The notes beneath the pieces were generated by a model. That model made no database searches. It saw nothing but the letters and a program-made list of their open reading frames with translations, and was not told where the DNA came from. The position numbers and the translations under genes are program-made. This document shows positions 22,849 to 26,278 of a stretch of DNA of 39,891 nucleotides, piece after piece; position 1 is the first letter of the stretch; the number at the start of each line of letters is the position of its first letter. Source of the stretch: Terriglobia bacterium (lineage in GTDB: Bacteria; Acidobacteriota; Terriglobia; Bryobacterales; Bryobacteraceae); contig JAIQFN010000055.1 of assembly GCA_020073265.1 (NCBI GenBank), forward strand, positions 1 through 39,891, in the 5' to 3' direction.

Positions 22849-24252
22849 CTAGGGCGTCACCGGTGGCGCCGTCCAGCGGCCGTTCAGGACCTCGTCTTTG
22901 GGCCAATACAGCCGCAGGATGAGATTGAATTTCCCCGCGGGGGCCGGCAGCCAGTTGGAGGCGCGATCCGGCGAAGGCGAATCATGCTGGATATACAAAT
23001 CCAGTGAGCCATCGGGATTGAACTTGAGCGGGTCGCGATCGCCGATGGCGAATCGATGGATCGGATTCGCGGCGAAGTAGCCGTCCTCGCCGTACATGGT
23101 GAGCGACCAGAAGGCGCGGACTGGGGGAACTTGAGCCTTGGAGAAGTGCATTCGATAGGGATGCGAGCCATCCAGTGGCTTGCCGTTGGCGTCTTGCTTG
23201 CAGGTGACGTAGATGGCGTCTTCAGAAGGTAGTGCGCCCAGGCCGAACCGCGCGATGGCGGCGCGTGCGGCGTAGTTGGCGCCGTACTTGCCGACCGTCC
23301 CGCCGGTGTCCGCCCAGCCGTTCTGCATGGGGCGGCCGTTGCTCGCGCTGAGCGGATCGAGCAGGTGGGCGGAAGCTGCCTGGGCGCCCGCTTCGAGCGC
23401 TTTCAGGCCGTCGGCGCCGAGCGCTTCCGGATGAAACGGCTTTCCGGGTGCGATTCCGATTCTTGCCAATTGCCGCAGCATGGGAGCGTCGGCAGCGTGG
23501 GGAGGGTTCTTGGCCAGCAGGTCGGCGAAGGTGCGGAAGAACTCCACCGGGTTCAGGCGCTCCACCTGTACGGGAGGCGGCACCGGCTCTGCGGCCGGGC
23601 TCGCGGGCGGCCGCGGCCCGGTGGGGCGAGGACCGTCCGGGTACAGGCTGAGCGGCATCAGAACGAAGCCTTTCTGAATGGCGTGCACGTTGGCATAGTC
23701 GCTGGCGTTGTTGGTCTGTGTGCGGCCGATCAGCCAGACCATGTTGGTGGGCGAGTCGATGCGCTGCGCGCGCGCGGGCAACGTTCCGCGCCAGCCGGGG
23801 CCGACTACCGCGAACCATTCGTCGCCGGTGCCGGTGGTGCGCTTGCCGGGCACCGAGAAAGTTTCGGTCCAGGCGTCCAGGAACTGCATGAGGTAGTAGC
23901 GGCCGTGCGTGTCGGCCACGTGCAGCAGCACCGGTTCTTTCGACAAATCGAGCCAGGAAGCAGAGTACAGCGTGTCGGCGTTGGGGCGGATGACGCGCCG
24001 GAATTTGTCGTCAGGAAACGCCGCGGCGTGAGTGAACTCATTCGTGCTGGCGGCGCCGAGTTGCGACGCTTGCGCGAGCGTGCTGCGGCGCGTGTATTCC
24101 ATCAGCACCAGCGGGTACGCGAAGGTGTAGGCTTGGCTGGCGATCTCGCGGATCTCGGACGGCGACGGCGCGGGCTGCTGCGATTGGCCGGCCGCGATTT
24201 GAACCAACCCGACCGCGTAAATCGCGAGCACGCTGCCTGTGAGTCCACGCAT
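22849..24252 (-). CDS. Exported DUF1254/DUF1214 protein
   Basis: A signal peptide (residues 1-22) is followed by the DUF1254 domain (YTFAYPLVLMEYTRRST, FRRVIRPNADTLYSASWLDL, YLMQFLDAWTETFSVPG) and the C-terminal DUF1214 domain (RAFWSLTMYGEDGYFAANP, then YIQHDSPSPD and ILRLYWPKDEVLNG). A Pro-rich stretch lies between them near residue 205-225. The two domains occur together in many bacterial periplasmic proteins of unknown function. The start at 24252 has a GGAG 6 bp upstream. It leads a probable two-gene unit with the short-chain dehydrogenase. Confidence 0.9.
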   Translation of the reverse strand: MRGLTGSVLAIYAVGLVQIAAGQSQQPAPSPSEIREIASQAYTFAYPLVLMEYTRRSTLAQASQLGAASTNEFTHAAAFPDDKFRRVIRPNADTLYSASWLDLSKEPVLLHVADTHGRYYLMQFLDAWTETFSVPGKRTTGTGDEWFAVVGPGWRGTLPARAQRIDSPTNMVWLIGRTQTNNASDYANVHAIQKGFVLMPLSLYPDGPRPTGPRPPASPAAEPVPPPVQVERLNPVEFFRTFADLLAKNPPHAADAPMLRQLARIGIAPGKPFHPEALGADGLKALEAGAQAASAHLLDPLSASNGRPMQNGWADTGGTVGKYGANYAARAAIARFGLGALPSEDAIYVTCKQDANGKPLDGSHPYRMHFSKAQVPPVRAFWSLTMYGEDGYFAANPIHRFAIGDRDPLKFNPDGSLDLYIQHDSPSPDRASNWLPAPAGKFNLILRLYWPKDEVLNGRWTAPPVTP

Positions 24253-24371: not shown

Positions 24372-24429
24372 AACCGCACCGGGGCGCCGGAAGGAGAGGC
24401 CTGTCGAAGCCGCCGGTTCCGGTGCGGTT
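24372..24429 (-). terminator. Terminator-like hairpin with structured loop
   Basis: AACCGCACCGG (24419-24429 read on the minus strand) pairs perfectly with CCGGTGCGGTT (24372-24382) over 11 bp. The minus strand continues TTCTT, a partial U run. The 36-base loop can pair further through GGCG/CGCC. It would end a transcript that begins within or upstream of 24430-24570. Confidence 0.45.
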
Positions 24430-24570: not shown

Positions 24571-24704
24571 AAAAAAAAACCCCTCTGATGCAACTTGCCG
24601 ACGAGAGGCAAGAGCGGCAAAATTTAAGACGCCGGTTCCCGCAAGCACAAACTCGTTCACCAGCCCGCTCGAGACCCCCGATCTGCCGTTGCATTCAGAG
24701 GGCA
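24571..24704 (-). ncRNA. Candidate structured RNA with 14 bp closing stem and U9 tail (possibly 6S-like)
   Basis: On the minus strand, CCCTCTGAATGCAAC (24702-24688) pairs with GTTGCATCAGAGGG (24594-24581) over 14 bp with one bulged A, directly followed by TTTTTTTTT (24579-24571). Inside are a side hairpin CTTGCC/GGCAAG on the 3' side, GAGCGG/CCGCTC and GCTGGT/ACCGGC. A closed stem, wide internal loop with a small 3'-side hairpin and a terminal stem recalls 6S RNA, but about 130 nt is short for 6S (160-200). No clear promoter is seen upstream. The strand is set by the U run; identity is open. Confidence 0.5.
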
Positions 24705-24910
24705 GGTTTCAAAGGTCACTTCATCAATTCGCTTCCTGATTTGCACGCCCGTGGCCAACGGTTTCTTCCGTATTTTTAGTAGCTTGCGTGCATTACTGAA
24801 AGGATCGCTGGGGTCGCAGGCGGCCCTGGGTGTGTCGTTGTGACACAATGGAGAGCGGTGGTTTCGCCGGTGACATCCGCTGGCGGCCATCGTCCAACGG
24901 TATTTCAAGA

Positions 24911-26278
24911 ATGTTTCGCCTGGTAAGACTACTGTGCGTAGTGTCCGGCATCCTGGCGGCTCAGCCGGGCCTGGAAGAGTACCGGGTTTACAACCAACAC
25001 CCCAGGCTGCTGCTGACCACGCAGCGTTTGCGGCTGCTCAAGCGCGAGCGCGACCGCGATTCGATGCGCTGGCGGCAGTTCTCGCTGCTGGTGCGATCCG
25101 CGGCCGAGATGCCGGAGCCCGGGTTCGCGCTGGCGCTTTACTACCAGGTGACGTCGGACGAAGTTTTCGGCAAGCGCGCGGTGGATTGGGCGCTGGGAGC
25201 GGGCGCCGATCTGCGGCAGTTGGCGCTGGTTTACGACTGGTGCCAACCGGTGCTGGCTCCGGCACAATCCAAGGCGCTCGCGGCCAAGATTCACGCGTTG
25301 ATCGAGCAACGGCCCGCGGCCACGGTGGCGGCGCGCCGGGACCGGGTGCTGGCCGTGATCGCAACCGCCGACGAGAATCAGCACGGCGAAGAGGCCGCGC
25401 TGCGAGACACGGTGGTGTCCTGGTGGAGAGCGCAGTTGGCGCCGCAGCTTAGCTCGGGCCGCACCACGATCCCGCTGCCCGATCTTTACCCGCTGGCGGA
25501 GCTGCTGCACGCGATTCGCGACAACTTGAAGATGGAGCTGCGCGACGACGCACCGGATTATTTTCGGGAGCTTCCCAAGTATCAAGTGCTGGGAAATTAT
25601 CCGGCGCCGCTGGACGCCCCGGAGAACGAGTATCGCATCCCGGTTTATACCGGCTCGGCCCAGCCCGACGTGGATCGAGCGGCGCTGGCGCGAGTGGCCG
25701 GCTTCGGCATGGTGGCGTACGACAACAATGCTCTCGAAAACCAGTTCCTGCAGGGCTGGCTGATCCAGGACCGCTTCATGCTGCAAGGCACCTTTGGCGC
25801 TCCCTACGAATTCCTGTGGGCCAACCCCTATCAGCCCGGGCTCAGTTATTTTCAACTGCCGCTGCTGTATCACAACGCGCAGTCGGGGGCGTTGTTCATA
25901 AGATCCAACTGGGAGGACGACGCGCTCTGGTTCGGCCTGTACGAAGGCGAGGCCCAGTTGTTCCAGGACGGCAAGATCACGGTGCTCAACCGGAGCGGCC
26001 AGCCCGCCTCCAACCCGGAACCAATCGCCGTTGGAGATGCCAGCGTGTTGTGGGGACGAGCGCCGGTAAAATTTTTGATGGAAGGCGGCACGATGCTGGT
26101 GGTAGGATTGAAACCACAGCACAAATATCTGCTCGAGACCGACGACGAGGAGATGTGCGAGCTCGAAACCGACCGGGTGGGTACGCTGGTGTTGACCTAT
26201 CCGGCCGGGCGCAGCGCGGGGGTTCGCATCCACGAGCCGGATGAGAATGGGGTGAATAGTGGACAAGGCGGAACGTGA
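24911..26278 (+). CDS. Exported heparinase II/III-like protein
   Basis: I chose ATG 24911 because it opens a signal peptide (MFRLVRLLCVVSGILAAQ); ATG 24848 and GTG 24830 are in frame upstream but give a polar start. The N-terminal segment NQHPRLLLTTQRLRLLKRER and the helical stretch with VYDWCQPVLAPAQSKALAAK are typical of the alpha-toroid of heparinase/alginate-lyase-like proteins. The rest is beta-rich (FIRSNWEDDALWFGLY, then LYEGEAQLFQDG), like the heparinase C-terminal sheet. Activity on an acidic polysaccharide is inferred. It overlaps the DinB gene by 20 bp. Confidence 0.8.
   Translation: MFRLVRLLCVVSGILAAQPGLEEYRVYNQHPRLLLTTQRLRLLKRERDRDSMRWRQFSLLVRSAAEMPEPGFALALYYQVTSDEVFGKRAVDWALGAGADLRQLALVYDWCQPVLAPAQSKALAAKIHALIEQRPAATVAARRDRVLAVIATADENQHGEEAALRDTVVSWWRAQLAPQLSSGRTTIPLPDLYPLAELLHAIRDNLKMELRDDAPDYFRELPKYQVLGNYPAPLDAPENEYRIPVYTGSAQPDVDRAALARVAGFGMVAYDNNALENQFLQGWLIQDRFMLQGTFGAPYEFLWANPYQPGLSYFQLPLLYHNAQSGALFIRSNWEDDALWFGLYEGEAQLFQDGKITVLNRSGQPASNPEPIAVGDASVLWGRAPVKFLMEGGTMLVVGLKPQHKYLLETDDEEMCELETDRVGTLVLTYPAGRSAGVRIHEPDENGVNSGQGGT

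Follow-up and report, generated by a model that had tools for sequence, protein, structure and literature searches.

The window, a 39,891-nucleotide stretch of DNA from a Terriglobia bacterium of the family Bryobacteraceae, almost certainly carries on its minus strand a genuine gene for a small RNA, predicted to be transcribed as a molecule of about 160 nt. Comparison with relatives revealed a conserved unit with covarying helices, a promoter-type element and a positioned palindrome, and the co-occurrence of the RNA with RpoN and Hfq. Judged from sequence, it is likely that the gene encodes a regulatory RNA whose transcription would depend on sigma54 together with an enhancer-binding protein and which would act in trans with the assistance of Hfq. 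The RNA appears to be near-universal in one family.

Extent, structure and distribution of the RNA

The sequence-only reading had described a 14 bp stem with one bulged A, followed by nine U on the minus strand, and we found this arrangement in place. In the closing stem P1, the 5' arm (24702-24688: CCCUCUGA, the bulged A and UGCAAC) forms 14 pairs with the 3' arm (24594-24581: GUUGCA and UCAGAGGG); a G and the nine U (24579-24571) follow. The 134 nt of the minus strand folded with a minimum free energy (MFE) of -59.2 kcal/mol versus a mean of -44.6 (sd 3.6) for shuffled sequences (z -4.06), and none of 200 shuffles was as stable. The 5' limit of 24704 proposed by that reading had to be moved, and the leader, the sigma54-type element and the palindrome described below do not figure in it. 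Alignment of 19 loci found by DNA search placed the start of the conserved unit at 24730, about 26 nt 5' of the hairpin; in this alignment and in an alignment of 61 RNAs the unit spans the region from the leader to the U-run. The RNA gene has the following features:

24571 to 24730, minus strand: small RNA gene of about 160 nt, with the conserved GAATTG (24730) as predicted 5' end; one unit in the 19-locus alignment
24718 to 24730, minus strand: 5' leader GAATTGATGAAGT, conserved and mostly unpaired
24688 to 24702, minus strand: 5' arm of P1 (sequence pairing, MFE fold and comparative model)
24581 to 24594, minus strand: 3' arm of P1 (sequence pairing, MFE fold and comparative model)
24665 to 24670, minus strand: 5' arm of helix P3, GAGCGG (six of six pairs changed on both sides)
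24612 to 24617, minus strand: 3' arm of helix P3, CCGCUC (partner in the same six pairs)
24637 to 24648, minus strand: apical word GUGCUUGCGGGA, part of the P4 helix and loop (conserved columns)
24571 to 24579, minus strand: U9 tail (sequence)

In the leader, conservation per column ranged from 0.62 to 1.0 and the mean unpaired probability from 0.5 to 0.86 (61 RNAs).

With a query of 281 bases, a match was obtained in 19 of 61 genomes, which all belong to the own family and include the own genome. The covariance model R2 matched the window at 24573-24730 with 117.3 bits. The sequence-only reading had also advised looking for the stem in relatives and testing it for covariation; with R2, the RNA was detected in 73 of the 81 sampled genomes of the family (56 of the 60 good ones), with two copies in six. 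A pattern scan of named genomes returned at least 120 stretches carrying the RNA, and most of 80 titles among the matches listed read Bryobacterales, Bryobacteraceae, Solibacter, Acidobacteria or Terriglobia. Three loci (L025, L042 and L061) are titled Bordetella, Arcobacter and Planctomycetota, yet carry the RNA; they are likely mislabelled metagenome bins. The genome bog_159 (L043 and L098) holds a second copy of the RNA, and L098 has neither a match to the palindrome nor a homologue of the divergent gene described below. Of 120 genomes sampled from the order, 91 contained the RNA, namely 90 own-family genomes and a single one of family f2; ten own-family genomes were among those listed without an RNA match, and nine further genomes without the RNA were taken as outside the family from the list order. 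A scan of the phylum detected the RNA in 3 of 297 genomes, all of the own family, which is a weak negative with 10 candidates scored per genome.

A single member, L013, supplied the comparative structure, in which pairs were kept if formed in at least 11 of the 19 rows of alignment A1, minus one pair. It describes a single interrupted hairpin of 36 pairs, with P1 (closing), P2, P3 (GAGCGG/CCGCUC) and the apical P4. Inner stems, of which three had been proposed from the sequence alone, are present in the single-sequence MFE fold. The apical part of that fold is unlike the comparatively supported P4, and the comparative model, its structure supplied from one member, replaces the three stems by one interrupted hairpin without branches.

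Compensatory changes, as expected of a structured non-coding RNA, were found in the helices, and the paired positions covary, with double-change counts above those of shuffles. This was analysed in alignment A4, comprising 61 of 121 RNAs (59 representatives below the similarity limit, the RNA of the window included, plus L039 and L041). A4 was fitted to the structure model and so leans towards it; within it, 90.3% of cells were paired versus 41-50% with slid partners, 23 pairs were changed on both sides versus 15.9 in shuffles, and 181 cells were so changed versus 48.8. Margins were smaller when the 19 DNA-found loci were aligned with MAFFT (89.3% versus 85.4%; 14 pairs versus 7.7), an alignment on which the tested pairs had earlier been filtered. 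Among the 61 RNAs, double changes occurred in all six pairs of P3 and in no pair of the apical helix (109-115 with 120-127), and seven pairs of outer P1 were invariant. A free RNAalifold run recovered 22 pairs, including four of the six of P3 and none of P4. Relatives and covariation agree with the earlier proposal that the minus strand encodes a free-standing small RNA rather than a plain terminator.

The loci, at least 120 in number, were fetched by the loop and CAGAGGG words, so that part of the conservation which A4 shows in these words follows from that choice; conservation of the upstream features and of the other helices is unaffected by this. The apical word or a near form was present in 26 of 30 loci picked by the upstream palindrome and not by the RNA. 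By eye, a lineage of genus g53 (L265, L266) has kept the promoter element, the palindrome and the closing stem with a different apical hairpin, a mild argument against activity residing in the apical hairpin alone. One member (L019, 1398-1527) is about 30 nt shorter and lacks part of the inner hairpin; its outer stem and promoter are kept. A bistable fold, in which the inner arm pairs with GCGUGCUUGC, was rejected, being the MFE of some members and not of others. On inspection by eye a leader peptide seemed unlikely, as the frame after the ATG differs between loci.

The RNA had been called undescribed, and cmscan of the whole window against 4227 Rfam families indeed gave no match at the gathering cut-off; ARAGORN found no tRNA or tmRNA in the window. 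A relaxed Rfam scan of 11 loci gave ten weak matches, one of them a separate 6S candidate. The likeness to 6S RNA suggested by the sequence-only reading was not supported, as the 6S model RF00013 matched nothing in the region at E<=10 and relatives carry a separate 6S-like locus. RF00013 matched another contig of the own genome with 25.2 bits (cut-off 46.4); this 6S-like site (L001 1501-1633; G000:C26:40795-40927, minus strand) is probably the 6S RNA. RF00013 matches were present in 23 of 46 genomes, two of them above the cut-off; since the family's 6S-like matches mostly fall short of it, Rfam may detect too few 6S RNAs here. A shortened 6S RNA binding sigma70 polymerase would share the long closing stem and a similar overall size class with our RNA. 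This identity has hardly any probability, given the absence of an RF00013 match in the region and the separate contigs of RNA locus and 6S match in 13 genomes with both (many of these 6S matches being below the cut-off).

Promoter element, palindrome and regulators

The region upstream of the RNA contains the following features:

24743 to 24757, minus strand: sigma54-type -24/-12 element TGGCCACGGGCGTGC (GG-N10-GC), 12 nt from its C to the predicted start
24831 to 24847, no strand assigned: palindrome TGTGTCGTTGTGACACA, candidate enhancer (activator-binding) site, centre 95 nt upstream of the -12 G
24911 to 26278, plus strand: divergent gene for a predicted secreted protein with a polysaccharide-lyase-like fold, the upstream neighbour of the RNA

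We take GG-N10-GC to be the sigma54 -24/-12 pattern; such an element, expected of sigma54-dependent sRNA genes, is present upstream of the RNA. Its conservation was analysed in 108 unique promoters among the matches listed, anchored solely on a TGC 10-17 nt 5' of the conserved end, so that TGC is 100% by construction. These derive from at least 120 loci, less 11 unanchored (2 too near the contig end, 9 with a wrong anchor) and one duplicate. In the 108 promoters the GG stood exactly ten bases before the GC (99% and 96%), it was preceded by T in 87%, and no base between GG and GC exceeded 56%. An expression for the whole element matched 113 of 120 loci among the matches listed. A generic promoter and terminator scan, which does not cover sigma54 and whose loop limit excludes the P1 stem, reported no sigma70 promoter and no terminator. 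Ending in a stem and a U-run, the RNA could be taken for part of a neighbouring transcript, as its 3' UTR or terminator. We regard this as extremely improbable in view of the conserved promoter-type element directly upstream, the divergent orientation of the upstream neighbour and the extent of the conserved unit from leader to U-run.

The genome encodes RpoN and enhancer-binding proteins, with 17 sigma54 activator domains (PF00158 matches), as expected where sRNA genes depend on sigma54. RpoN was found in 19 of 19 own-family genomes (the own and 18 others), in 3 of 10 genomes of family f3 and in 0 of 2 of f2 (both incomplete); the corresponding counts for Hfq are 19 of 19, 2 of 10 and 2 of 2. 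One genome of f2 (G039, 64% complete) contains the RNA and has no RpoN match. Of the ten genomes sampled from f3 (G038-G048), seven yielded no RpoN and eight no Hfq, which suggests that both were jointly lost in that family; none of them showed the RNA among the matches listed.

The palindrome consensus TTGTGTCANNNNGACACA was found upstream, with at most 2 mismatches, in 104 of 111 loci among the matches listed, versus none of 110 control stretches even with 3 mismatches allowed. The 111 loci come from at least 120, of which 115 were unique, less 3 without a located promoter and 1 too short. A fairly loose expression matched 93 of 120 loci among the matches listed. Relative to the -12 G, the centre of the palindrome lies at -84 (3 loci), -94 to -97 (25), -103 to -107 (73), -109/-110 (2) or -121 (1). 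These spacings differ by steps of about one helical turn, with a broad maximum of periodicity near 10-12 nt; the phase test draws mainly on two clusters, and the loci are related and not independent.

The own genome contains one exact site. In the 81 family genomes we counted 44 distinct exact sites, in 42 genomes, and 0 for the reversed control pattern. Of these sites, 42 adjoin an R2 match (places joined by eye); R2 gave no RNA match at the two exceptions, G014:C3 and G088:C63. Conversely, 25 of 30 loci chosen by the palindrome contain the strict RNA words, and four more (L153, L171, L173 and L175) are R2 matches. The palindrome is kept in five of the seven loci without a homologue of the divergent gene (among the matches listed), so the site follows the RNA and not the divergent gene. 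The sequence evidence for an enhancer is good, and it is highly likely that the palindrome is the site at which the activator of the RNA would bind. In several loci it lies near the beginning of the divergent gene, which is a possible second user under shared control. Tentatively, each genome may have one enhancer-binding protein that keeps its DNA site nearly private to a single RNA gene, family-wide, with the lyase-like gene perhaps sharing it; we put this at somewhat below even chances.

The TGC could also be read as part of a sigma70 promoter with an extended -10 (TGnTAnnnT), the palindrome then being an operator of the divergent lyase-like gene. Among the matches listed, T follows the TGC in 83% of the 108 promoters, TAnnnT fits in 31 of 108 and a full TTGACA, the sigma70 -35 sequence, stands at a fitting distance in 24 of 108; the nearness of the palindrome to the divergent start codon in several loci would also agree with this reading. 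It is nevertheless very unlikely, because TAnnnT fails in 77 of these 108 promoters, GG is found ten bases before GC in 96-99% of them, and the palindrome stands at set distances from the RNA promoter and is still present in five of the seven loci that lack the divergent gene. In view of the 24 promoters with TTGACA, some members may have overlapping sigma70/sigma54 promoters. The sequence evidence for sigma54 control is strong, and the sRNA gene is very probably sigma54-dependent, the element being the predicted binding site.

Neighbouring genes and mode of action

A homologue of the divergent gene lies upstream of the RNA, on the divergent strand, in 107 of 120 loci among the matches listed; the other 13 comprise six with less than 600 nt of upstream sequence and seven without a homologue in tblastn. 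The protein (24911-26278) had no match in Pfam. Its structure model (pLDDT 92.1) predicts an alpha-toroid and a beta-sandwich and resembles lyases of glycosaminoglycan, heparin and alginate, at query TM-scores of about 0.5, 11-15% identity and large rmsd. PMC3162934 ties sigma54 to the cell exterior, and the lyase-like neighbour would agree with this, as no more than a hint. Downstream of the RNA lies a gene for a DUF1254/DUF1214 protein (22849-24252, minus strand), and between the two is a strong, G+C-rich hairpin (24373-24428). A relaxed scan of the region gave there, on the other strand, its only match, a weak SAM-riboswitch-like one of 21.1 bits (cut-off 44.4), which is probably due to chance.

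In the mechanism we propose, RNA polymerase with sigma54 would transcribe the regulatory RNA of about 160 nt from the minus strand. A bacterial enhancer-binding protein would bind the palindrome about 100 nt upstream and switch on the promoter via DNA looping. In the product, an open 5' leader would precede a long interrupted hairpin and the 3' end would be rich in U; this RNA would most likely act in trans on mRNAs, helped by Hfq. One signal sensed by the activator would in this way be turned into post-transcriptional control.

Hfq is present in the genome and the RNA has a U-rich 3' end (U9), as expected of an Hfq-dependent pairing sRNA; from these features, Hfq probably assists it. The conserved, mostly open leader together with the CCUG segment, the U tail and Hfq favour a regulator that acts by base pairing, and we lean slightly towards predicted target pairing over action as a decoy. 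GlmY acts as a decoy that binds RapZ. With the same gene and promoter, our RNA could likewise titrate an RNA-binding protein through its apical hairpin and closing stem. The conserved apical word (its conservation due in part to the choice of loci, yet present in 26 of 30 palindrome-chosen loci) and the seven unchanged outer P1 pairs would suit this. Nor was a pairing target found: the complement of the leader 12-mer occurs in the own genome only at the RNA itself, and pairing with the start of the divergent mRNA was not above chance (mean z -0.38 in 29 loci, mononucleotide shuffles). A decoy would leave the conserved, mostly unpaired leader unexplained, and members of genus g53 lack the apical word; we consider it unlikely.

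If the activator's site is indeed nearly private to the RNA gene, the system would represent a one-target sigma54 relay, in which one signal leads to one regulatory RNA, and a lyase-like gene sharing the site would hint that the cell surface or polysaccharide use is being controlled. As the RNA is near-universal in the family, its promoter readable and its palindrome nearly private, the signal, the activator and the targets are directly testable. Acidobacteriota are abundant in soils, and our results suggest that this common group of soil bacteria has an RNA regulator not described before.

Comparison with known systems

The best-matching papers of the literature search named no sigma54-controlled sRNA of Acidobacteriota. 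The Acido-1, Acido-Lenti-1 and Solibacter-1 motifs are candidate structured RNAs of Acidobacteria according to a section of PMC2864571. The first two have Rfam accessions and are without a match in the window. Our RNA represents a real, conserved sRNA family without an Rfam entry. Solibacter-1 has no Rfam accession in the table of that paper and might be the same RNA. With 6S RNA (RF00013) it has the long closing stem in common; it differs in that the 6S model does not match here and the 6S-like locus of relatives is a separate one.

The GlmY/GlmZ system with GlrR of Enterobacteriaceae resembles the present one in that an sRNA gene has a sigma54 promoter (here a sigma54-type element) and, upstream of it, palindromes with TGTC/GACA half-sites that serve the activator (here a candidate site). 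The overlapping sigma70/sigma54 promoter reported for a glmY gene (PMC8745638) may have a counterpart in 24 of 108 members here (among the matches listed). The half-sites are separated by 5 bases here, in contrast to 10 in the GlrR (QseF) consensus TGTC(N)10GACA as given in PMC4987338. Further differences are the single conserved site here instead of three, the other phylum and the absence of an Rfam match to any GlmY/GlmZ family in the window.

Qrr (Vibrio, LuxO) and CrcZ (Pseudomonas, CbrB) are sigma54-dependent sRNAs. No sequence relation to them was found, and the Rfam scan was negative here; the likeness lies in the arrangement, in which, as far as the sources drawn on describe it, a small RNA is driven by sigma54 together with an enhancer-binding protein, as proposed here.
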